This document shows, piece by piece, positions 13,586-23,944 of a stretch of 49,911 bases of DNA. Position 1 is the first letter of the stretch. Each line of letters begins with the position of its first letter. Both the position numbers and the translations under genes were made by a program. Where the stretch lies: contig CALKEU010000014.1 in NCBI GenBank assembly GCA_938084565.1, positions 1 to 49,911 on the forward strand, given 5' to 3'. The stretch comes from Candidatus Kapaibacterium sp. (GTDB taxonomy: Bacteria; Bacteroidota; Ignavibacteria; Kapaibacteriales; HRBIN21). Under the pieces are notes generated by a model. It made no database searches. It was not told the origin of the DNA and saw nothing but the letters and a program-made list of their open reading frames with translations.

Positions 13586-14753
13586 GGTACGTTTGCGTGC
13601 TGGGCACGAGGCACGCGTCCGGAGCGGACACCTCTGGATTTTTAGCAACGAATTGCAGCAGGTACCTCCTTTGCCACCGGGCAGTCTCGTACGAGTTCTG
13701 ACCGCTGCGGGAGACAGCGTCGGGATTGGACTCTACAATCCACACAGCCTCATCTGTGTCCGTCTCTTGGGCATTGACGGCGATGTTACCACACTAGGGC
13801 TTGATTTCTTCGTCGAACGGCTCAGCCGAGCCCTGCAATTACGGCAGCAGCTCTGTCGCGGAGAGGCCATGTACCGCCTCGTGCACGGGGAAGCTGATCT
13901 TCTACCGGGCTTGGTCGTGGATCGCTATGGCGAGTATCTGGCCCTGCAGACGCTCTCGGTGGGCATGGACCAGCGTCTTCCTACCATTGTCGAAGCTCTC
14001 CGCATGGTACTTCCTGAGGTACAGGGAATCGTCGAGAAGAACCTCTCCCGCCTCCGGGAGCTTGAGCAGCTGCCGCAGCAGCAGAGAGTGCTCTATGGCC
14101 ACATCCCCGAGCGCTTCGTCCTCGAAGAGTTCGGCCTCCGCATAGAGATCCGGCTGCTCGAGGGGCAGAAAACGGGAGCCTATCTCGATCAGCGCTACCA
14201 CCGATTGCTGACAGGACGTCTGGCCACAGGTCTGCGCGTCCTGGACTGCTTTACCTACCACGGTGGATTCGCCCTCCATGCTGCTGCCCAGGGAGCAGGC
14301 GAAGTGCTCGGTATTGATAGCTCCGGCAGTGCCCTGGAGGTTGCTCGACGTAATGCAGAGCTTAACGCGCTGCAGCACGTCCGCTTCCACGAAGCGGATG
14401 TCTTCAGCTTCTTACGCGAGCAGGTTGCCAGCGGAGCACAGTGGGATATGGTCATTCTCGATCCCCCTGCCTTCGCCAAAAGTCGACGCCACGTCCCCTC
14501 GGCCAAGCAGGGGTACAGCGAACTGAACCGCCTGGCGCTCCTCCTCTTACCGCCCGGAGGCTTTTTAGTCACGAGCAGCTGCTCTCACCATGTCTTTGAG
14601 GCCGTCTTTCTCGAACTCATCTTCACCGAAGCCGCTCGCCTCGGACGCCGTCTCCGGATGCTCTACCGAGGGACTCAACCCCCCGACCACCCCATCTTAC
14701 TGAGTATGCCGGAGACGCAGTACCTGAAGTTCTTCATCTTCCAGGTGCTCTGA
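13578..14753 (+). CDS. rlmI: RlmI-type 23S rRNA (cytosine-C5) methyltransferase
   Basis: This SAM-dependent methyltransferase is expected to methylate a cytosine in 23S rRNA. Of its 391 residues, the N-terminus is a PUA-like RNA-binding domain (about 1-80, including SGHLWIFSNEL). A central segment follows, then a Rossmann methyltransferase with VLDCFTYHGGFALHAA (SAM motif I, about 215-230) and the motif IV signature DPPAFAKS (about 295-302). The length matches E. coli RlmI (396). Other members of the family (COG1092) may act on different bases, so the exact site is inferred. It starts inside the preceding ribbon-helix-helix gene. Confidence 0.88.
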   Translation: MHEVRLRAGHEARVRSGHLWIFSNELQQVPPLPPGSLVRVLTAAGDSVGIGLYNPHSLICVRLLGIDGDVTTLGLDFFVERLSRALQLRQQLCRGEAMYRLVHGEADLLPGLVVDRYGEYLALQTLSVGMDQRLPTIVEALRMVLPEVQGIVEKNLSRLRELEQLPQQQRVLYGHIPERFVLEEFGLRIEIRLLEGQKTGAYLDQRYHRLLTGRLATGLRVLDCFTYHGGFALHAAAQGAGEVLGIDSSGSALEVARRNAELNALQHVRFHEADVFSFLREQVASGAQWDMVILDPPAFAKSRRHVPSAKQGYSELNRLALLLLPPGGFLVTSSCSHHVFEAVFLELIFTEAARLGRRLRMLYRGTQPPDHPILLSMPETQYLKFFIFQVL

Positions 14754-14824
14754 ATCCCGTCGGCGGGGCTCTGAAATGGCATGATTTTTTCACAAGCATC
14801 TGCTGCGTCCAGACAGCAGCTTCT

Positions 14825-15892
14825 ATGCGCGTCCGCACCTACAGGGCTCCGAGTATGCACGAGGCACTCCGCTCGATGCGGCGGGAGTTGGGCGAAAGCG
14901 CCATTATTCTCTCCACGCATACCCTCCGTCTGGACGACGGCACCGAACTGGTGGAGCTCCACGCCGTCCCCGAGCAGGAGATGACCTCTCTGCCACCCTC
15001 TGCCGATGGAAATCCATGGGCAGAGAGCTCGTGGGTTTCTGACCTCCGGAGGGAACTCCTCACTCTGCGGCAGCAGCTCAATATGCTCGAAGCCCTTTTA
15101 CGTTTCAACACAAGTCCCGATCCCCTTTGGCAGCGACTCTATACAGCCCTACGTGCTGAAGGGTTCACCGATGAGTTCCTTCTACGACGTCTGCCGCCAA
15201 CACAGCCAGTCTCCTCCTGGAAAGAGCTACTCTTGCGGGCTCGGCAGCACCTGACGAACCACATTCGCACGGCCGATCCCCCGCTGCCGAGCACGGGACC
15301 GCTCCGTCTCCTCGTCCTTGGAGCACCTGGTTCGGGCAAGACTTCAACCCTGCTCAAGCTGCTCCTGATGTACAAACTGCTGCACCATCTGCCATGCTTC
15401 TTGATTAGCACTGAAGCTCACAGGCTGGGGGCACTTGAACAGCTCCAGCTGTTCTCCTCCATTGCCGATATTCCTCTGGCGGAGGCCTATACTGTACAGG
15501 AGCTCCGCCACCATTTGGCGGCCCATCCTCCATCGCCCATGGTTGTGGGAATTGAGTTGCCTGGCGGGAACCCCTTCCGAGCTGAGATCCGCCAGCAGTG
15601 GCAGCGCTACGTAGATATCGTACGCCCAGAGGCTCTCTACGGTGTCCTCAGTGCAACGGATGCGCTCCCTCTCCTCCGACGCCTGCTCCAGCTGTGGCAC
15701 GATCTTGGCGTGACAGGCCTCATCCTAACTAAGCTCGATCTAGCTCCCAGCGTAGCCCCAGTCGTTGAAGCACTCGAGCACTCAGAGCTGCCAGTCATCT
15801 ACTTCTGCACCGGTCCACGAATTCCGGAGGATATCGAACCTGCACGCAGTCAGGCACTAGCGTATCGTATCGGCACAGTGGAGGAACCATGA
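14825..15892 (+). CDS. flhF: Flagellar SRP-like GTPase FlhF (diverged)
   Basis: FlhF is an SRP-family GTPase that sets flagellar position and number at the pole. This 355-residue protein has the typical N-terminus (MRVRTYRAPSMHEALRSMRRELGESAIILST), a helical N domain and a G domain. G1 is GAPGSGKTS (166-174). HRLGALEQLQLF (199-210) matches FlhF's RIGAxEQL segment. G4 is TKLD (302-305), and RIPEDIEPA closes the domain. G2 lacks the usual DTYR and reads STEAHR. The DTAGR of G3 is replaced by ELPGG (244-248). GTP hydrolysis may therefore be impaired. It opens a tightly overlapping operon and overlaps flhG by 4 bp. Confidence 0.85.
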   Translation: MRVRTYRAPSMHEALRSMRRELGESAIILSTHTLRLDDGTELVELHAVPEQEMTSLPPSADGNPWAESSWVSDLRRELLTLRQQLNMLEALLRFNTSPDPLWQRLYTALRAEGFTDEFLLRRLPPTQPVSSWKELLLRARQHLTNHIRTADPPLPSTGPLRLLVLGAPGSGKTSTLLKLLLMYKLLHHLPCFLISTEAHRLGALEQLQLFSSIADIPLAEAYTVQELRHHLAAHPPSPMVVGIELPGGNPFRAEIRQQWQRYVDIVRPEALYGVLSATDALPLLRRLLQLWHDLGVTGLILTKLDLAPSVAPVVEALEHSELPVIYFCTGPRIPEDIEPARSQALAYRIGTVEEP

Positions 15893-16677
15893 GCAAGGAG
15901 TCCACCCGCATTGTGGCCCTCTGTAGTGGGCGCCCGGGGTTAGGAAAGAGCACCACAGCAGCCAATCTGGCTGCTGCTGCCGCTCGAGAGGGTATCCTCT
16001 GCCTCCTCTGGGATGCCCAGCTGAATTCCCCGCGTCTGCACCTCCACTATGGCCTGAATCCCGTTGCCACGGCCTCAGATGCTTACCTTGGAAGCGCTCG
16101 CATCGAGACCATCCCCATACGGCTCCGTCCACATCTGTGGCTTTTACCAGAGCGCACACTCAACGGCGATGCTGAAGCACAGCTGACAGGAGCTTTTCCT
16201 GCCCTGCTACAGGAACTCATCCACCATCGACGTCCGGAGCTCATCCTCATTAACCTCCCACCCGGATGGTCGGGGCTGGCTGCTACGGTCTGCCAAAGAG
16301 CAGATCTGTGTTGCCTCGTCATGGGCGAGGATATTGGCTCCATTCTGGACACCTACGCCTTCCTGAAAGCCCTCTTGGCAAGTTCCCGTAAGCCCCCCCG
16401 CCTTGGGCTGATCGTCACGGGGATTGTCGAGGTCACGGAAGCTTGTGTGCTCGCAGACAAGCTCAACGCTGCTACAGCCCGATTCCTCGGCCAGCGGATA
16501 CCACTGCTCGGGGCCATCCCGTATGAGCCTCGGCATCGGACGGCGCTCTTGCAGCAGCAGCCCTTCCTGGAAGCCTTCCCCGAAACAGAGGCCGCTCTCC
16601 TCTACCGCAGGCTTCTGCACCGATGTGTCGTAACACACCAGGCAGATCATGCCGGGAAAATCGCGCAGGAGTGGTGA
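15889..16677 (+). CDS. flhG: Flagellar number regulator FlhG (MinD-like ATPase, diverged)
   Basis: FlhG is a ParA/MinD-family ATPase that restrains flagellar number and activates the FlhF GTPase. This 262-residue product has the fold, with the P-loop at about 13-22 (GRPGLGKSTT) followed by AANLAAAAAR, a D in LLWDAQ, and a C-terminal amphipathic region. The signature lysine of the deviant Walker A (KGGxGK) is Arg here. The Walker B Asp is Asn (LINLPPGWSG). Both changes touch residues tied to dimerisation or hydrolysis. It overlaps flhF by ATGA and the next small gene by 29 bp. Confidence 0.85.
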   Translation: MSKESTRIVALCSGRPGLGKSTTAANLAAAAAREGILCLLWDAQLNSPRLHLHYGLNPVATASDAYLGSARIETIPIRLRPHLWLLPERTLNGDAEAQLTGAFPALLQELIHHRRPELILINLPPGWSGLAATVCQRADLCCLVMGEDIGSILDTYAFLKALLASSRKPPRLGLIVTGIVEVTEACVLADKLNAATARFLGQRIPLLGAIPYEPRHRTALLQQQPFLEAFPETEAALLYRRLLHRCVVTHQADHAGKIAQEW

Positions 16678-16933
16678 AACCGTCAGCTTTGTCTTCTCCG
16701 TCAGCCTATTGGCTGGGTGCGTTGCAGTGATTATCTTTGCTCTACAACCGGAGCTGGCGACCGAAGCTGTCCTATTGCGAGCCTTTATTGTCTTTGTGGC
16801 CGCTGCCACAGCAACGACTTTCTTCCTAGTGCTGTGGCGTCCAGGACGGAGGGGAGCGGGAAGCCAAGTGCTGGAGGGTCCGTCCAGTCGAGGTGCCCAT
16901 GAGGAGCCACCGCAGATACCAACTCAGCGCTGA
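16649..16933 (+). CDS. Small two-helix membrane protein in flagellar operon
   Basis: This 94-residue protein has two predicted membrane helices (about 12-32 and 43-63) and a polar, Gly/Pro-rich cytoplasmic tail. No family is recognised. It starts inside the end of flhG (29-bp overlap) and ends inside the start of fliA (35-bp overlap), so its translation is bound to both neighbours. A similar unnamed small membrane gene sits between flhG and fliA in some other bacteria, which supports a real gene. Confidence 0.65.
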   Translation: MPGKSRRSGETVSFVFSVSLLAGCVAVIIFALQPELATEAVLLRAFIVFVAAATATTFFLVLWRPGRRGAGSQVLEGPSSRGAHEEPPQIPTQR

Positions 16934-17702
16934 AGAGCTCCCCCAGGTATGGCAACGCTACTGGGAACGGCGCGCCGACGAGGATCGCCAGCGCCTCATC
17001 CTCCACTACCTCTGGTTAGTCCGCTACGTCATCCACTCCCTCTCCCTTCCCGAGCACAGCTCGCTGAGCCAAGAGGACTTGGAGCACGTCGGCGTGCTCG
17101 GACTCAATGAAGCCATTGAGCGCTTCAACCCCAGCCGGGGCACGAAGTTCGAAACCTACGCTCTGGTACGCATCCGCGGAGCAATTCTGGACGAGCTCCG
17201 CAAGCTGGACTGGCTCAGCCGCAGTGCCCGCCGCAAGGTCCAAGCATACCAACAAGCCGCCGACGCACTCCAGCAGACCCTTGGGCATGAAGCTTCCGCG
17301 GAAGCCATCCGCCAGTGGCTCGGGGTCCCACCGGAGATCTACCGCTCGTATCTACGGGCCGTGGAAGCAGCTCAAGCTTCGTTCTCCTTCTATGATCCCC
17401 CAGCTGCTCCACCGACAACCGAGGAGGAGGAACCGGCCAACCCCCTGGAAGAGCTGGCCGATCCTCATGCAGCCGACCCGGCCGAGAAACTGTCACGACA
17501 GCAGCTCCTTCAGGCCGTGATGGATTATCTTGAACGGCTCCCTGAACGAAAGCGCCTGGTCATCGTGCTCTACTACTACGAAGGGCTGACCTTCCGCGAA
17601 ATCGGACAATTGCTCAACCTCACCGAAAGCCGAGTCTGCCAAATCCATGCCAAGGTACTGGAAGAGCTCCGTATCCATCTCCGCGCTCACCACCATGGTT
17701 GA
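16899..17702 (+). CDS. fliA: RNA polymerase sigma factor FliA (sigma-28)
   Basis: FliA is the sigma factor for late flagellar and chemotaxis genes. The 267-residue product has region 2 with LILHYLWLVRYV and the FETYALVRIRGAILDELR segment typical of FliA/WhiG, a region 3, an acidic linker of about 25 residues (about 165-190), and region 4 with the helix-turn-helix LTFREIGQLLNLTESRVCQIHAKVL. ATG 16899 is preferred; GTG 16893 in the same frame is an alternative. No FlgM anti-sigma gene and no flagellar structural gene is in the window. It overlaps the HDOD gene by 8 bp. Confidence 0.92.
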   Translation: MRSHRRYQLSAEELPQVWQRYWERRADEDRQRLILHYLWLVRYVIHSLSLPEHSSLSQEDLEHVGVLGLNEAIERFNPSRGTKFETYALVRIRGAILDELRKLDWLSRSARRKVQAYQQAADALQQTLGHEASAEAIRQWLGVPPEIYRSYLRAVEAAQASFSFYDPPAAPPTTEEEEPANPLEELADPHAADPAEKLSRQQLLQAVMDYLERLPERKRLVIVLYYYEGLTFREIGQLLNLTESRVCQIHAKVLEELRIHLRAHHHG

Positions 17703-18615
17703 CAACCCACTCGCCCACCGTCTCGGGCACATTGAGCAGCTCCCTACCATACCACCGCTTGTTGCCGAGAGCCTCCGCCTGCTTGGAGAGCCGAACGCTA
17801 GTGCCACACAGATTGCCCAGTTCATTGAGCGCGATCAGGCCTTGACGGCACGGTTGCTACGCGTGGCAAACTCTCCTCTCTACGGTTTTCCACGGCGTAT
17901 TAGCACAGTGCGCTTAGCTATCTCGCTTCTGGGCAATGAGGCTGTGCGCCAAATCCTTGTAGCTGCCGCGCTCTATGATCTGGTCACGGTCAAATCCGGT
18001 GTCCAGTGGGAACGTGAGCTCTTCTGGCATTACTGTCTCTACTGCGCCGTGGCGGCTCGCTCCTTTGCCCGGCGCGTAGGCTATCGCCGGGCTGGGGAAG
18101 CCTTCACTGCCGCACTCCTCCACGATCTCGGTGTCCTGCTCATGGCAGCCTACCTCCCGGCCGAATATACTGCCGTGGTACGCCACCAACAATACTCGGG
18201 CTGCTCGCGTCTTGAGGCCGAACAGCTCGTCATCGGTACCACACATGCCCAGCTCGGTGCATGGCTTGCCGAGCAGTGGAATCTGCCCCCGAGTTTGGTA
18301 GCAGCTCTTGCCTACCACCACACGGCCGATCCGCCACCTGTGACCGAGCAGAGTGGCCATGGTGTGCCGCCCCCACTCAACCAGCTCGCACAGCCGCTCA
18401 CCGCCCTGGTAGCTACAGCTGAGTATCTGGCCCATTGGAAAGGGCTGCGGCGATGGTCTGCCGAAGAGACCCTCCAATCCCCACTCTATCTGCCCGATCC
18501 CTTGTGGCAGCTGTATTTGGCATGCGAGCTGATAGAACCTACAGGCGAGCCCACCTCAACCCTAGATGCAGAGGTAGAGGCGGCGTACCATTGCCTGGCT
18601 GAGGCACTGTGGTAG
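17695..18615 (+). CDS. HDOD domain signalling protein
   Basis: This 306-residue protein consists mostly of an HDOD domain, a non-catalytic relative of HD phosphohydrolases that scaffolds signalling proteins. Recognisable pieces are LPTIPPLV near residue 16, the core IERDQALTARLLRVANSPLYGF (about 43-64), and LLHDLGVLLMA near 142-152. ATG 17695 lies in the end of fliA (8-bp overlap). HDOD proteins next to fliA and histidine kinases often take part in motility or biofilm control, but no partner is proven here. The histidine kinase follows after 6 bp. Confidence 0.9.
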   Translation: MVDNPLAHRLGHIEQLPTIPPLVAESLRLLGEPNASATQIAQFIERDQALTARLLRVANSPLYGFPRRISTVRLAISLLGNEAVRQILVAAALYDLVTVKSGVQWERELFWHYCLYCAVAARSFARRVGYRRAGEAFTAALLHDLGVLLMAAYLPAEYTAVVRHQQYSGCSRLEAEQLVIGTTHAQLGAWLAEQWNLPPSLVAALAYHHTADPPPVTEQSGHGVPPPLNQLAQPLTALVATAEYLAHWKGLRRWSAEETLQSPLYLPDPLWQLYLACELIEPTGEPTSTLDAEVEAAYHCLAEALW

Positions 18616-18621
18616 AAACCG

Positions 18622-19944
18622 ATGGCCCCAGAGCCCCCATCCTGGGAAGAGCTCCGAGAGCAGGAGCAGCGATACGTGCACCTGCTGGAACTCCGCTGTG
18701 AGCTCCTGCAGCGGGAGGTTGAGTACCTCCGACAGCAACTGACGCAGTACCTGGCCGGCTCCCCACGCCGCGATCTCTCCGACATCCGCCAGCTCTTGAC
18801 AATCTCTGAGCCGGAGGAACTCCTGGAGCGGGCACGCCTTCTCCTCCAGCAGTGGACACAGGCTACCGATACGTATGCCATCCGCCTTGCCCCCGATGGA
18901 GCTCTCCAGGTTTATCCGGCAACCTACACAGAGCACGCCCGCACGCTCACCGAAGAGGGTGTCCTCGACTGGCTTACCGAACACGGTAGCCCTACTCTCC
19001 TGCCAGACCTCTTCGGCGGTGCAGAAGCCACAGGCACACTCCTGTTGCTCCCCCTAGGAGAGTCGGGTCAACGGCTGGGGGCCCTTGTCGCCCTCAAGGT
19101 CCCCGCAACTCTGCCATTGGCGGAACTCCGCGAGCAGCTCCAGTACATGGGCATCCTCCTCGGAGTCCTGCTCGACAATGCTGAGAGCTCTCGCACAGCT
19201 ACCCTCCTGCATGAGCGCCTCCAGCACCTGCAGCGTACACTCCAACAGACCGAAACGGTTGCAACGCTAGGCAAAATAACCAGCATCCTCATCCACGAAC
19301 TCAGCAACCCTCTACAAGCTCTCCTCTCCTACGCAGAGCTCATCGAAGCCGGAGTCGGTGATACCCGCAGCCATGCTTACTCCCTCCGGCGCGAACTGCT
19401 CCGCTTAAACCAACTGCTCAACGAGCTGCGCCATATGATTCGCCGTCCCGATGCCGTGCTGGAGCAACATCCCGTTGATGTTGCTGCCGTTATCGAACGG
19501 ACCTTGCAGCTGCTGAACGTACAGTTTCAACGCGATCGAATCACGGTTCGCTGCGAGCAGGAGGCTCCAGCAACATGCATTCTCGGCCATGCTGGCCAGC
19601 TCGAGCAGCTTTTCGTCAATCTGTTTCTGAATGCCCGCGATGCCATGCCTGGAGGGGGGCTCCTCCACATCCGCCTCCGCACGGAAGGGAAGGAACTTGT
19701 CATCGAGTGCCAGGACTCCGGCATTGGTATGCCAGCGGAGCTGCTCGAGCGTGTCTTTGAGCCTTTCTTCACCACGAAAGCCCATGGCTCCGGACTCGGA
19801 CTCACGATATGCCGCGACATCGTGGAACGCCACGGCGGCACGCTGGCTCTCTCTTCGCAGCCTGGAGCTGGAACGACAGTGATCCTGCGCTTCCCGCTGT
19901 TGCAGGATGTCCCACCAGAGACCACCTCTTCCTCATGCGGATAG
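18622..19944 (+). CDS. Cytoplasmic sensor histidine kinase (GAF-like sensor)
   Basis: This 440-residue kinase has no membrane helices. Residues 1-45 form a short coiled coil. About 60-190 read as a GAF-like sensory domain. The H-box is ILIHELSNPLQALLSY with His225. The ATPase domain has the N-box NLFLNARDAMPGGG, the G1 box DSGIGMP and the G2 box HGSGLGL. The layout resembles NtrB/FlrB-type kinases that control flagellar genes, but no response regulator is encoded nearby. It follows the HDOD gene by 6 bp and overlaps the next gene by 10 bp. Confidence 0.92.
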   Translation: MAPEPPSWEELREQEQRYVHLLELRCELLQREVEYLRQQLTQYLAGSPRRDLSDIRQLLTISEPEELLERARLLLQQWTQATDTYAIRLAPDGALQVYPATYTEHARTLTEEGVLDWLTEHGSPTLLPDLFGGAEATGTLLLLPLGESGQRLGALVALKVPATLPLAELREQLQYMGILLGVLLDNAESSRTATLLHERLQHLQRTLQQTETVATLGKITSILIHELSNPLQALLSYAELIEAGVGDTRSHAYSLRRELLRLNQLLNELRHMIRRPDAVLEQHPVDVAAVIERTLQLLNVQFQRDRITVRCEQEAPATCILGHAGQLEQLFVNLFLNARDAMPGGGLLHIRLRTEGKELVIECQDSGIGMPAELLERVFEPFFTTKAHGSGLGLTICRDIVERHGGTLALSSQPGAGTTVILRFPLLQDVPPETTSSSCG

Positions 19945-21371
19945 GATCCCTTGCGAGCATCGTTTGGTGTATGCTCTCCATCGGCCTCTCGGCCACAACA
20001 CTGGAGCAGATCCAGCGCGACGAGCGCGGCCGCATTCTGCTTTTCTGCTCTGCTCAGCCCTTGAGCTGGCGCTCAGAGCTATCGGCCGACAAACGGCGCA
20101 TTCTCCTCATGTTTCCGGGGCTGAGGCCATCTGCTGAGCTCCGCCCCCGAATGTGGAGCGATGGGCTCGTGCGCGAGGTCTACCCGAAGCGGAGCGGTGA
20201 TAGCTTGCAGCTCTACGTAACGCTGGCTGCTCCCAGCGGGTATAGCACCCTCTGGCTCCCTTACAGCCGCTGCCTCCTGCTGACTCTTTTCTCCTGGGAG
20301 GAGCTTCCACCCGAGGAAGAGCTCTACCATAGTGCCCTCCTGGCACTGGAGTTGCGCTCAGAGAGTGTGGCTGAGAGCTTGCTCACACAAGCAGCCGACC
20401 GGGGTTCTGCCGATGCGGCCGCTGTGTTGGCTGGCCACTCACTCGCTGCAGGCAAGCCGCTTACTGCCTTGCGATGGCTGCGACAAGCATGGGAGCGGAG
20501 CACACTTCCAGAACCATATGGCATTGCTGCCCATCTGGCCGCCCTGAGTGGGCAGATCACCCTCTCTCACCAGCTGGCCGAGCACTTCCGTGCCCTCACA
20601 GGTCGCCCGCTCCCCCCACCGCCTCCCGTGCCGATCGACAGCTCTGCAGCCCTCACGGAAGCTTTCCTCCTTGCCCCGCTCGAATTCAGCCCCACCCCAT
20701 CCGACAGCGTCCTTGTGGCGAGTAAAGCACCGCCCGACACTCTTTCTCCACCCCCTCCACCGGCGACTGGAAGCGTCCCTGACTGGCTCCTGCTCTGGAG
20801 CCCACTCTTCTTCACCATTATAGCCCTCTTCGCCATCAGCTCCATCCTCCGCACTCTGCTACGGGTCCTTCGCAAACCCTCGCCATCTTCGGTCTCGGCC
20901 TCTCCCACCGCCTTCCCTGGCTATGTCCGAGAAGCATTGCAACACTATCGCGCCGCCGAAGATCGGGCACGCACAACCTCTACCGAGCAAACCGATGCGG
21001 TACCATCGGTTCCGAATCCGCACGAGACCTCGACCATGGTACCCCCTCCCGTTCATGCTCAGCCGCCTGAAGAGAGAGAGCTCAGCACACCGACACCGGA
21101 ATTAGCACAGCTGTGGCGGCAACGCCTCCGGCAGCGTTCGGCATACCTTCAGCAACGGCTCTCCCACTTAGGGGAAACCCTGCCAGCTACCCCCGAGGCA
21201 CGACAGCGTCTAGCCCGCCGCCTCCGCATCCCGTCGGAAAGTCTCGAACTGCGCTACCGTCTCCACTCCGTGGATCCAGAGCGCCTGTTTGCCCGTTTCC
21301 GCCGCACCCCAGAACCTCCGTCATTCGTCTCTGCTGCCGGTACAGAGTCCCACTCATCGGTGCAGGGATGA
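19935..21371 (+). CDS. Membrane-anchored protein with AMIN-like N-domain and repeats
   Basis: This 478-residue protein has an N-terminal signal/anchor (about 1-20), then about 100 residues of short strands resembling an AMIN-type beta domain (RILLMFPG, LQLYVTL). An Ala/Leu-rich helical stretch with Sel1/TPR flavour follows (about 130-215), then a Pro/Ser-rich linker. A strong membrane helix lies at about 282-310, followed by a basic cytoplasmic tail of about 165 residues. The family is not recognised. AMIN-like domains bind peptidoglycan or secretin-type envelope machines, so an envelope-spanning adaptor is plausible. It overlaps the kinase by 10 bp and the sorting-domain gene by 4 bp. Confidence 0.7.
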   Translation: MRIGSLASIVWCMLSIGLSATTLEQIQRDERGRILLFCSAQPLSWRSELSADKRRILLMFPGLRPSAELRPRMWSDGLVREVYPKRSGDSLQLYVTLAAPSGYSTLWLPYSRCLLLTLFSWEELPPEEELYHSALLALELRSESVAESLLTQAADRGSADAAAVLAGHSLAAGKPLTALRWLRQAWERSTLPEPYGIAAHLAALSGQITLSHQLAEHFRALTGRPLPPPPPVPIDSSAALTEAFLLAPLEFSPTPSDSVLVASKAPPDTLSPPPPPATGSVPDWLLLWSPLFFTIIALFAISSILRTLLRVLRKPSPSSVSASPTAFPGYVREALQHYRAAEDRARTTSTEQTDAVPSVPNPHETSTMVPPPVHAQPPEERELSTPTPELAQLWRQRLRQRSAYLQQRLSHLGETLPATPEARQRLARRLRIPSESLELRYRLHSVDPERLFARFRRTPEPPSFVSAAGTESHSSVQG

Positions 21372-21772
21372 AGTACGCAGTACTCGTGGGTAGCATCGCT
21401 ATCGTGCTCGCCTTCCCGGTGCAGGCCCGCTGGGCCGCTCCGACCAAAGCAGAGGGCACCCCTTCCATATCGTCGCAGGGGGAACGCCGCGCCGTGGCGG
21501 ATTCTCTCCCACGGGAAAATCGCATCCAGTCAATCCGGGAAACTGCCGATGGCCATGTCGTCACTGTCGAACTCGCCGTGGAGCAGAACCGCCTCGATAT
21601 TGGGGTTTACAACCTCCTGGGCAAGCGAGTCGTAACGGTCTACCAAGGGAAGGCTGCTGCCGGGATTCGCGAGTATCCCATACCGACCGGCGGTCTCCCT
21701 AACGGCATTTACATCTGCCTCGTCCAAGGGGATGGCTTTCGACTGGCACAGAAGTTTGTGCTGTCGCGCTAA
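21368..21772 (+). CDS. Mini secreted protein made of signal peptide plus T9SS sorting domain
   Basis: This 134-residue protein has a signal peptide (1-20, ending in VQA), a polar linker of about 30 residues, and then about 80 residues that match a type A T9SS C-terminal sorting domain. The key pieces are VTVEL, the strand IGVYNLLGKRV, the turn GGLPNGIYICLV, and a basic Lys-Phe-Val end (QKFVLSR). No cargo domain is present. T9SS sorting domains route proteins through the outer membrane. A stand-alone one may be a signal or adaptor rather than an enzyme. The start overlaps the previous stop (ATGA), and the 3' end overlaps the PorV-like gene by 41 bp. Confidence 0.85.
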   Translation: MKYAVLVGSIAIVLAFPVQARWAAPTKAEGTPSISSQGERRAVADSLPRENRIQSIRETADGHVVTVELAVEQNRLDIGVYNLLGKRVVTVYQGKAAAGIREYPIPTGGLPNGIYICLVQGDGFRLAQKFVLSR

Positions 21773-22793
21773 GCTGGGGTGTGCGGGGATCCTCCTTCTG
21801 GGCAGCACTCTAGCCCTCCGAGCACAAGCCGTCAGCGAAGGGGTCGCTGCTGCCTATCTCCTGCGTCCGGTAGGGGCTCGCTCGCTCGGGCTAGCAGGGT
21901 CATACACCGCTGTGGCTAACGAACCAATGGGGATCTTTGCCAATGCTGCTGCCGGCGCGTGGCTGCCCCCGCAACCGACGGTATCGCTAGCAGTGTCTCT
22001 GCTCGGTCTTGGACGTACTTACACCAGTGCCGCATATGCCCAAGCCGTGGGCAAAGGTCTTGGCATCGGTGTAGGGATACAGAGCTTCTCCGCAGGGAGC
22101 TTCATCGCTCGAAACTGGTACGGGGAGGCGCTCGGGAACTACACACCATACGAGCTTGCTGCAACTCTAGCCGGGAGCTTCCGCTGGGAGTTCTTCAGTG
22201 TTGGCATGGCGGCAAAGTACCTCTGGAGCGGTGTGGCCGGTGCAGGGCTGACTGCTCAGGGAATTGCTGCCGATGTTGGGACTCTCTTCCACGTGGCCGA
22301 TCTCTTGTCGGTCGGGGCCTCTCTGCGCAATCTCGGAGGCTTTCTGCAGTGGGCCCACCATCGAGATCGCCTTCCTGTGAGTATGGCGATCGGGATTGCC
22401 ACCGAGCTCGGTCTGGCACCACCTGTCCAACGCGGACGCCTACCGGTAACGGGCCAAGAGTATCTCGTGCGCCTTCCCTCTCCGCACTACGTACTACTGG
22501 CGGCGGAACTGCAGTATGTGCAGGATGCCCCTCGGCCGAGCGTTTCTGTAGCCGTCGAGGTGGCACCCTTTCCGGGTGTAGCCCTCCGCGGTGGGGCGAT
22601 CCTCTTCGGCAACGAGCTCGGGCGTGCCCGCTGGCTTCCCAGACAGCGACTCGGTGGCGGGATCGCCATCCAGCTGCCCGAAGCCCTCGATGCACCGTTC
22701 CACCTCCAGCTCGATTACGCCCTCACGTACGAATACGCTAGCCCTTCACGGCTGGCGCATACGATAGGTGTGACGACGCAGCTAGCGCGATGA
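21732..22793 (+). CDS. PorV/PorQ-family outer-membrane beta-barrel protein
   Basis: This 353-residue protein has a signal sequence (hydrophobic core about 15-30, ending in AQA) and an N-terminus like PorV/PorQ barrels: GARSLGLAGSYTAVANEP followed by FANAAAG. A series of amphipathic Gly/aromatic strands follows, including the family's FFSVGMAAKYLWSG and LSVGASLRNLG segments. PorV shuttles T9SS cargo by its sorting domain to the attachment complex; other members are uncharacterised. ATG 21732 gives a 41-bp overlap with the mini sorting-domain gene. TTG 21756 is a possible alternative. The pairing with a sorting-domain protein supports a secretion role. Confidence 0.82.
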   Translation: MAFDWHRSLCCRAKLGCAGILLLGSTLALRAQAVSEGVAAAYLLRPVGARSLGLAGSYTAVANEPMGIFANAAAGAWLPPQPTVSLAVSLLGLGRTYTSAAYAQAVGKGLGIGVGIQSFSAGSFIARNWYGEALGNYTPYELAATLAGSFRWEFFSVGMAAKYLWSGVAGAGLTAQGIAADVGTLFHVADLLSVGASLRNLGGFLQWAHHRDRLPVSMAIGIATELGLAPPVQRGRLPVTGQEYLVRLPSPHYVLLAAELQYVQDAPRPSVSVAVEVAPFPGVALRGGAILFGNELGRARWLPRQRLGGGIAIQLPEALDAPFHLQLDYALTYEYASPSRLAHTIGVTTQLAR

Positions 22794-23944
22794 ACTACCG
22801 CGGCTTTGCAACTCGTGCCATTCACGTCGGGCAAGAGCCCGATCCTACCACCGGAGCGGTAATTCCCCCGCTCTATCTGAGCTCCACTTACGCCCAGGAG
22901 GCGCCCGGGAAACACCGTGGCTTTGAGTACTCTCGCACCAACAACCCCACCCGGCAAGCCTGGGAGCGCAATATTGCCGCACTCGAGGAGGGAACCGACG
23001 CCATCGCCTTCGCAAGCGGTATGGCAGCCATCGATGCTCTCGTCCGCCTCCTCCGGCCGGGCGATCATATCCTTGCCTCAGCCGATCTCTACGGTGGGAC
23101 AGTGCGTTTGTTCGAACGCGTGTGGTCAACCTTTCAGATCAGCGTCACGTACGTCGACACTCGCCAGCCTGAGGCCGTCGACGCTGCGTTCCAGCCGCAG
23201 ACACGCATGCTCTACATTGAAACCCCCACCAATCCGCTCCTCCAACTGGCCGACATTGCCACGATGGCCGAGCTTGCACACCGGCATGGGGCCTGGCTCG
23301 TGGTGGATAATACCTTTGCCACCCCTTACGCCCAACAACCGCTGACACTCGGGGCCGATTTCGTGGTACACTCAACGACCAAGTACCTGGCAGGCCATTC
23401 CGATGTGGTTGGCGGGGCCGTTGTGATCCGAGATCCCGATCTTGGAGCCCGACTCCGCTTCCTGCAGAATGCTGCCGGAGCAGTTCCAAGCCCCTTCGAG
23501 TGTTGGCTCTGCCTGCGCTCGGTCAAGACGCTCGCCCTACGGATGCAACAGCACGAGCGCAATGCCCTGGCTATTGCAGAGCTGTGTGCAGCTCATCCGG
23601 CCGTTCGGGCAGTTCATTACCCTGGGTTGCCGACGCACCCGCAGCATGGGCTTGCACGGCGCCAGATGCGCAACTTCACCGGGATGCTCTCGCTCGAGCT
23701 GGGAACAGCCGAACGGGCTCATCGATTTCTCCGCCATCTTCGGCTCTTCACCCTTGCCGAATCACTCGGGGGCGTGGAATCCCTGGCCTCCCACCCGGCT
23801 ACGATGACCCATGCGAGCCTCGATCCCGAATGGCGCCGCCGCGTTGGCATCACAGACGGCCTGGTGCGCCTCAGCTGCGGTATCGAAGATACAGAGGACC
23901 TCCTCACCGATGTTGCTTCGGCTCTGGAGGCCCTCGAGAGATGA
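22790..23944 (+). CDS. Cystathionine gamma-synthase/lyase family PLP enzyme
   Basis: This 384-residue cytoplasmic transsulfuration enzyme is of the Cys/Met-metabolism PLP family. Visible hallmarks are YSRTNNPT (phosphate-binding Tyr/Arg), FASGMAAI, the DNTFATP segment with the cofactor Asp, and the PLP lysine in HSTTKYLAGHSD (about 200). The SLGGVESL motif near the C-terminus is also typical. Sequence alone does not decide between cystathionine gamma-synthase, cystathionine gamma-lyase and methionine gamma-lyase. It overlaps the PorV-like gene by ATGA, an unexpected partner. Its stop lies only 9 bp from the convergent yidC stop. Confidence 0.93.
   Translation: MNYRGFATRAIHVGQEPDPTTGAVIPPLYLSSTYAQEAPGKHRGFEYSRTNNPTRQAWERNIAALEEGTDAIAFASGMAAIDALVRLLRPGDHILASADLYGGTVRLFERVWSTFQISVTYVDTRQPEAVDAAFQPQTRMLYIETPTNPLLQLADIATMAELAHRHGAWLVVDNTFATPYAQQPLTLGADFVVHSTTKYLAGHSDVVGGAVVIRDPDLGARLRFLQNAAGAVPSPFECWLCLRSVKTLALRMQQHERNALAIAELCAAHPAVRAVHYPGLPTHPQHGLARRQMRNFTGMLSLELGTAERAHRFLRHLRLFTLAESLGGVESLASHPATMTHASLDPEWRRRVGITDGLVRLSCGIEDTEDLLTDVASALEALER

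Follow-up and report, generated by a model that had tools for sequence, protein, structure and literature searches.

A flagellar control gene string of a Candidatus Kapaibacterium, apparently extended by an envelope module

A string of ten plus-strand genes, numbered g1 to g10 here, runs from flhF to a transsulfuration enzyme gene in Candidatus Kapaibacterium sp. (assembly GCA_938084565.1). It occupies positions 14825-23944 of the window, i.e., the 49,911-nt contig C14 (CALKEU010000014.1), one of the 16 contigs that make up the genome of 1.87 Mb. Two of the genes, g7 (a predicted trans-envelope protein) and g9 (an outer-membrane barrel of the PorV/FadL fold), are found only in flagellated relatives, which suggests that both are new parts of the flagellum. 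A flagellum-linked envelope module is well supported by the sequence comparisons presented below, and we lean towards reading the string as a flagellar control-and-placement operon extended by such a module, with g7 as the anchor and g9 as its outer-membrane partner.

How polar flagella are anchored to the cell envelope and pass through it is poorly known outside the proteobacteria. Here, co-occurrence across the order and natural deletion scars tie two protein families to flagella: g7, the window protein of which matches nothing in Pfam, and g9, known by name only as a relative of a secretion system. If the reading is true, the flagellum and the PorV family come together at a single envelope site, and g7 offers a way of testing what FlhF recognises in bacteria related to the Bacteroidota.

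Co-occurrence with flagella, deletion scars and gene order

Profile searches were run over 123 genomes of the order, with thresholds of 1e-30 for g9, 1e-15 for g7 and 1e-9 for g8. A genome is called flagellated if it has a match to FlhA (PF00771), FlhF or FlgH, which applies to 79 of the 123; FlhF matches were accepted down to 8e-38, while those of about 1e-33 and weaker were taken as FtsY/Ffh. The g9 gene is present in 72 of the 79 flagellated genomes and in none of the 44 others, always with one match per genome (the split g9 of G036 is counted once). The figures for g7 are the same (72/79 and 0/44), with split matches in two genomes. Flagellated genomes without a g9 match are G003, G005, G085, G094, G096, G097 and G118; those without a g7 match are G003, G005, G041, G085, G097, G102 and G118, of which G041 has a weaker one. 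Among all 123 genomes, FlhA is matched in 78, FlgH in 73, sprA in 119 and g8 in 107. When FlhA alone defines a flagellated genome, 71 of the 72 genomes with g9 are positive, and the exception (G013) has FlhF and FlgH.

The non-flagellated genomes belong to families f2 (n = 23), f7 (n = 9), f9 (n = 7) and f3 (n = 5), and the five of f3 are 84-98% complete. Judged from group membership, about six to eight separate losses of the flagellum would be needed. At a threshold of 1e-20, weak g9 matches appear in five f2 and two f7 genomes; they are taken as other members of the PorV family, since those genomes keep such genes. The type IX secretion system (T9SS) core gene sprA, which lies on contig C5 in this genome, occurs in 42 of the 44 non-flagellated genomes, and g8 is matched in 39 of them. 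One of these g8 matches, that of G037 (7.5e-10), possibly concerns a different protein with a sorting domain; all others have values of 2e-19 or lower. On these sequence comparisons, g7 and g9 look dedicated to the flagellum and g8 and g10 do not look flagellum-linked.

A search of 395 genomes of the phylum with g9 returned weaker and mostly partial matches outside the order, none of which reached the scores seen within it. The best one (1.6e-37) is in G241 of family f16, where a g8-like and a g9-like gene adjoin and where flhF is followed by a g7-like gene. A g7-like gene directly 3' of flhF is found in all four f16 genomes examined. The f16 flhF genes at L213, L219 and L220, each with the g7-like gene directly after it, match the profile only from about position 70, as does that of L218, which is cut by the contig end.

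A natural deletion separates the genes of the string further. Genome G109 has no FlhA match, while its genus mates G110 and G111 carry the full string; the flanking genes common to G109 and G110 share 77-100% protein identity. In G109, the stretch just ahead of flhF runs directly into the 3' terminus of g7, with 72 and 146 bases aligning to G110 at 90-92% identity. An intact g8 lies between this scar and a second one (both at L087:6177-6993, compared with L114 of G110), where what is left of g9 aligns to bases 16-82 and 978-1064 of its 1068-base counterpart in G110, the middle being lost. These remnants are 75% and 79% identical to G110 and 85% and 88% identical to G111. As read from the alignments, two deletions thus flank g8 and spare it: one took flhF to g7 and the other the interior of g9. 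The ratio of nonsynonymous to synonymous substitution rates (dN/dS) of g8 is 0.23 between G109 and G110 (0.04 for rpe), compared with 0.27 between the flagellated mates, for which that of g9 is 0.07. The g8 gene is therefore not visibly relaxed by the loss of the flagellum.

The order of the string is conserved beyond the genus and across families, a check that the preliminary description of the window had proposed. The orthologues of flhF stand first in the string of relatives, and flhG adjoins flhF on its 3' side in most loci examined. Within the genus, G001, G002 and G004 have the upstream RlmI-type methyltransferase gene (g0) and g1 to g10 in line, with no match to the kinase in G002, whereas G003 and G005 end at a contig edge inside the string. 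At L039 of G004, fliA, the kinase, g7 and g9 are each matched in two separate frames, through either sequencing error or decay. The order g1-g2-g4-g5-g6-g7-g8-g9 recurs in f3, f8 and f10, as read gene by gene, with variants at L107, L108 and L117 that are devoid of the HDOD gene or of both the HDOD and kinase genes. Of the compared loci, only those of the genus include the RlmI-type gene and g10 in the string. The recurrence of the gene order across families is more than chance would give. In 24 of the 72 genomes with g9, flhF and g9 share a strand and are no more than 12 kb apart (families f1, f3, f8 and f10). They are far apart on one contig in seven and on different contigs in 39, some due to broken assemblies; the remaining two (G046 and G075) have no FlhF match. 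The g7 gene is near flhF in 27 genomes, and loci of f4, f5, f6 and f9 carry g9 without flhF nearby. Note that loci L151-L173 and those of the G-numbered genomes are partly on the same contigs, so the counts are not summed. A first scan of named genomes for FlhF gave no relative. The string also occurs on JAGXRP010000033.1 (L153), which is labelled Desulfobulbaceae; this label looks wrong.

The g9 barrel and its sorting-domain neighbour g8

The predicted model of g9, built from 23 sequences, has a predicted local distance difference test score (pLDDT) of 85.4 and resembles PorV of Flavobacterium (8gl6_F: Z 32.0, root-mean-square deviation (rmsd) 4.2, 286 aligned residues, 18% identity; 6h3i_F: Z 31.8). 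The score against FadL is about as high (Z 31.1). By sequence profile, PorV is the sole PDB match of note (2.2e-7). Against the model of the PorV/PorQ family (NF033709), g9 scores 86.3 bits, just below the cut-off of 90, and orthologues at L101 (G014; 118.5) and L151 (105.7) score above it. The scores against the specific models are far lower: 26.2 bits for the T9SS PorV model NF033710 (cut-off 250; 50.8 and 43.7 for two orthologues) and 62.9 bits for the PorQ model NF033711 (cut-off 220), for which L188 of the same genome reaches 165.8.

The T9SS PorV is a separate gene, with NF033710 scores of 249.5 bits in this genome (G000), 262.8 in G014, 260.4 in G015 and 236 in G109. It is present in non-flagellated genomes too (e.g., G015). 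Five genomes searched for the PorV family hold three to six members each, amounting to 21 places, three of which are g9. In a tree of 49 rows (32 g9 sequences and 17 of the 18 paralogues, the partial L194 being omitted), the g9 rows stand on one side of a branch with 100/100 support, where long branches meet, apart from the paralogues, which come from flagellated and non-flagellated genomes alike. The NF033710 score, the separate PorV gene and this branch rule out g9 as the PorV of the T9SS core. It shares the barrel fold of the T9SS shuttle (6h3i/8gl6), but forms a clade separate from the T9SS PorV of the same genomes and tracks flagella, not T9SS.

The neighbouring g8 encodes a signal peptide, a linker and a type A T9SS sorting domain, and is a putative T9SS type A cargo. 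The Pfam sorting-domain model PF18962 scores 23.4, below its cut-off of 27. All 10 of the 10 g8 rows aligned share a cysteine within the sorting domain (C82 in the row of the window). At some loci, the place of g8 is held by a protein of 400-525 residues (L046:15431-17011, L053:11342-12916, L098:7831-9258, L166:8480-9703), with repeat-like, propeller-looking sequence before a sorting-domain-like end; the g8 of the window may be a shrunken form of such a larger protein. In three loci of f2, a family without flagella (L081-L083), g8 adjoins a g10 homologue with no g9 match between them, whereas g9 lies between them in the window. An exclusive pairing of g8 and g9 does not hold, as g8 without g9 and g9 without g8 both occur. 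The arrangement recalls the pairs of type B cargo and PorP/SprF shuttle in having a sorting-domain gene beside a barrel gene (PMC12618676). It differs from them in that a type A domain and a PorV-family barrel are found, inside a flagellar operon, and are separable.

The predicted trans-envelope protein g7 and its proposed role in flagellum placement

The g7 protein is predicted to consist of a signal peptide, an AMIN-like beta domain (aa 22-119), tetratricopeptide repeat (TPR) helices (aa 126-246) and a membrane helix (aa 283-313) followed by a cytoplasmic tail. The model, built from 18 sequences (pLDDT 72.5), shows the tail as helical at low to middling confidence; the TPR region is identified by profile match and has seven helices in the model. 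The first rows of a Foldseek search are the Campylobacter motor scaffold 9hmf_K (3.2e-4) and the AMIN-type B2 domain of PilQ, and the entry for the N-terminal domain of PflA (9leq_A) is listed at 0.11. Matches by VIA-align are mostly TPR proteins (up to Z 9.7), next to AmiC (Z 8.3), all with scores of a size that the tool describes as common, and no single relative stands out. HubP/FimV resembles g7 in its single membrane pass, its domain in the envelope outside the membrane and its partnership with FlhF systems. HubP/FimV nonetheless has a periplasmic LysM and a cytoplasmic TPR, while g7 has its TPRs N-terminal of the membrane helix and no LysM was seen in the g7 proteins among the matches listed (25 of 66 families), so g7 is not assigned to this group. 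It is probably not a FliO either: the AMIN-bearing FliO has a cytoplasmic beta-sheet core after its membrane segment (PMC12403147), compared with the tail of g7 that is modelled as helical at the confidence given above.

In the class but outside the order, 20 loci from 11 families indicate what the place of g7 may have held before. The core flhF-flhG-fliA-HDOD-kinase is present in 17 of the 20 loci, and in 13 a small protein is encoded upstream of an flgF-like gene. This protein, found at L197:11625-12092 and at 12 further loci of flagellated class relatives, is a membrane protein that resembles FipA/SwrB, and its gene is flanked by those of the kinase and the flgF-like protein. At L197, two flgF/G-type rod-protein genes, flgA, flgH and flgI follow, and L203, L210 and L212 are similar by eye. 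The L197 protein, which has two DUF2802-type stretches, matches DUF2802 (FipA) at 1.6e-5 and DUF6115, which we take to be the SwrB family, at 6e-4. Both matches are below the cut-offs, and proteins of this kind, staying below the Pfam cut-offs, are easily missed. With E-values up to 1, six of the 13 small proteins match DUF6115 and three DUF2802. In one comparison, the tails of g7 align with those of the class small proteins with a probability of 85.1 (E 6e-6), while control tails of six other families give 0.1-0.3. Going by these sequence matches, g7 fills the slot of a FipA-like protein, and its periplasmic part may be later growth.

FipA acts on FlhF through DUF2802, and the genomes from which it is reported all have FlhF/FlhG (PMC11620751). 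The string begins with the same genes as the FipA/flhF-flhG-fliA operons known from polar flagellates; in the class relatives, these genes are followed by one for a membrane protein whose tail is FipA-like. The g7 protein differs from FipA by its predicted periplasmic AMIN-like domain and TPRs, and has no DUF2802 match itself.

The extended operon that we favour could work as follows. FlhF and FlhG would set the place and number of flagella and FliA would serve the late genes, accompanied by the HDOD protein and the soluble kinase. As a membrane-spanning anchor, g7 would receive FlhF and its cargo with a cytoplasmic tail in the FipA/SwrB-like slot, and its membrane helix would lead to the periplasmic TPRs and the predicted AMIN-like domain, which may bind peptidoglycan or a motor ring. 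The g9 protein, a barrel from the PorV shuttle family, would have been recruited to partner this placement site in the outer membrane, e.g., to mark or open the spot where the rod and L ring cross. The g8 protein would share the string but serve the general T9SS. A bolder version is put forward tentatively, as a possibility: in Kapabacteria, a T9SS shuttle-family barrel became an obligate component of the flagellum in the outer membrane, and g7, a new protein crossing the envelope with its FipA-like tail on the inner and its AMIN-TPR part on the outer side, ties FlhF-dependent placement to this barrel, making an assembly site that extends through the entire envelope. In the literature searched (mainly titles and abstract openings, with subscription papers mostly outside the search), no PorV-family protein was tied to a flagellar operon. 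The components are of known kinds; their combination and a flagellum-dedicated barrel are new as far as this search extends. Flagellar genes of Ca. Thermonerobacter are described as not being in a single cluster (PMC6338057).

Several observations weigh against this reading. Beside flhF, no g9-type or PorV-family match at 1e-3 occurs in any of the 20 class loci, which places the barrel outside the older core. The Fisher p-value of the co-occurrence (2e-26) ignores relatedness and is uncorrected, and where g9 is unlinked from flhF it is solely the co-occurrence that points to its role. FlgH is present in 73 of the 79 flagellated genomes, which also rules out that g9 replaces an absent L ring. 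The link between g7 and FipA is weak: one of 100 column shuffles scored 99.7, above the real alignment (the rest gave at most 0.5), and no match to DUF2802 (PF10975) or DUF6115 is seen in a first set of g7 proteins or among the matches listed for 18 members (25 of 66 families). The AMIN assignment is that of a predicted fold, for which the tool itself warns that Z values near 8 are common; the Pfam AMIN model matches one of the 18 members, at 0.016, and the overall fit of 9hmf_K to g7 is poor (rmsd 26.8, template-modelling score 0.16). A direct contact between g7 and g9 is a guess.

The same data can be read in other ways. The g7 protein might be a periplasmic motor scaffold of the PflA-spoke type that holds stators rather than a placement anchor, with g9 joining the disk to the outer membrane. 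We consider this rather unlikely, even though g7 has a predicted beta domain and TPRs, the top Foldseek match is 9hmf_K and PflA itself is listed. In PflA, periplasmic TPRs come after an AMIN-like domain, and genes for TPR proteins are found widely in the neighbourhood of flagellar genes (PMC11870540). Yet PflA carries 16-17 TPRs (PMC12222027, PMC11870540) compared with the few in g7, which additionally has a membrane helix and a long cytoplasmic tail, fits poorly overall and is neighboured by placement genes. An unlikely alternative for g9 is that of a dedicated T9SS shuttle for g8 or other type A cargo, coating the flagellated cell or its pole, in which case the flagellar link would reflect shared control. 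The two genes adjoin in 64 of the 66 genomes counted (64/67 when G113, with its g8 match on another contig, is included), and g8 extends to about 525 residues, with the same end domain, in one genome each of f8 and f10. PorV can bind the sorting domain of the small PorA (PMC7712824). In Flavobacterium, type B cargo is often linked to its own PorP/SprF-like shuttles and all type A cargo is recognised by PorV (PMC12618676). Against such a shuttle stand the 39 non-flagellated genomes that have g8 without g9, and the five out of 72 genomes (G009, G018, G025, G030 and G095) that have g9 without a g8 match at 1e-9, albeit that in G018 the neighbour of g9 encodes a larger, diverged protein, the end of which resembles a sorting domain.

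The joint loss of g7 and g9 with the flagellum could also be a by-product of their physical linkage to flhF, near which g9 lies in 24 genomes and g7 in 27. This is improbable given the seven genomes with g9 far from flhF on the same contig, the loci of f4, f5, f6 and f9 without flhF nearby, and G109, where g9 was removed by a deletion of its own and g8 between the scars was retained. The least probable reading, to which we give very little credence, is the one that the preliminary description had offered, i.e., one programme for flagella and T9SS or gliding. The string does include a sorting-domain gene and a PorV-family gene, but sprA is present with or without flagella and on another contig, g8 is not flagellum-linked, none of the ten genes is a T9SS core gene by Pfam and NCBIfam cut-offs, and the barrel that was presented as a T9SS part is a gene other than the T9SS PorV. 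From the coordinated envelope system proposed there, an envelope module linked to the flagellum through the co-occurrence of g7 and g9 stands, while the share of T9SS or gliding does not.

The ten genes and their junctions

The open reading frames of the window confirm all ten plus-strand genes of the preliminary description, and its gene names hold by Pfam and NCBIfam profile matches (Table 1). An SRP-type (signal recognition particle) GTPase, a MinD-type ATPase and a sigma-28 factor follow each other in the order of a flhF-flhG-fliA regulatory operon, and this order is shared by relatives. The genome also encodes structural genes of the flagellum (FlhA, FlgH and five Flg_bb_rod matches).

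Table 1. Genes of the string, with their positions in the window and the basis of their description.
Gene	Description	Position	Strand	Basis
g1	flhF, SRP-type GTPase, flagellum placement	14825..15892	+	Pfam SRP54 2e-17; TIGR03499 6e-25, below cut-off
g2	flhG, MinD/ParA-type ATPase, number control	15889..16677	+	CbiA 1.3e-8, ParA 3e-8
g3	Small membrane protein, 94 aa	16649..16933	+	Conserved in genus
g4	fliA, sigma-28 type sigma factor	16893..17702	+	TIGR02479 213.6 bits, cut-off 189.6
g5	HDOD protein	17695..18615 (longest open reading frame from 17647)	+	HDOD 1e-60; same place in class relatives
g6	Soluble histidine kinase	18622..19944	+	HATPase_c 1.3e-27; same place in class relatives
g7	Envelope protein, flagellum-linked	19935..21371	+	Co-occurrence, predicted model, TPR profile match
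g8	Mini sorting-domain protein, 134 aa	21368..21772	+	TIGR04183 28.1, cut-off 23
g9	PorV/FadL-fold outer-membrane barrel, own clade, flagellum-linked	21732..22793	+	Co-occurrence, model, tree
g10	Cystathionine gamma-synthase/lyase type (transsulfuration)	22790..23944	+	PRK07811 6e-158

The near-universal overlaps of 4-41 bp with a single gap of 6 bp, as described earlier, are borne out at the chosen starts; alternative starts are our own reading of the frames. The overlaps are 4 bp for flhF/flhG, 29 bp for flhG and the transmembrane gene g3, 41 bp for g3/fliA with GTG 16893 (35 bp with ATG 16899), and 8 bp for fliA/HDOD with ATG 17695 (56 bp with the longest frame). The gap separates the HDOD and kinase genes. 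It is followed by overlaps of 10 bp for kinase/g7, 4 bp (ATGA) for g7/g8, 41 bp for g8/g9 with ATG 21732 (17 bp with TTG 21756) and 4 bp for g9/g10. The string is bordered by a gap of 71 bp after g0 at one end and by a convergent yidC at the other. The overlaps had been taken to imply translational coupling and coordinated control. Elsewhere in the window, however, 13 of 24 same-strand neighbour pairs overlap as well, by one rough gene call with longest starts that inflates overlap, and 16 of 24 are within 20 bp. Overlap is thus common in this genome and weak evidence of such control; it is ruled out as a sign of special coupling, and the overlaps alone are unremarkable.

A promoter between the kinase and the sorting-domain gene was looked for and not seen. 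A scan for sigma-70-type promoters gives four sites compared with 1.7 expected, those on the plus strand being only at 14425 and 18142; no sigma-28 site was found in 14753-23944 with a rough consensus, and neither scan is decisive. In an Rfam search, tRNA alone was matched, and PHROGs gives no match for g7 to g9. No model scores above its NCBIfam cut-off for flhG. The closest models to the kinase g6 are AtoS and ZraS (AtoS 3e-51, below cut-off). The g10 gene is probably a housekeeping passenger. No Pfam or NCBIfam family is above cut-off for g3, the position of which is taken by larger membrane proteins (131-249 aa) in six loci of other families; the one at L103 weakly resembles the membrane region of g7.

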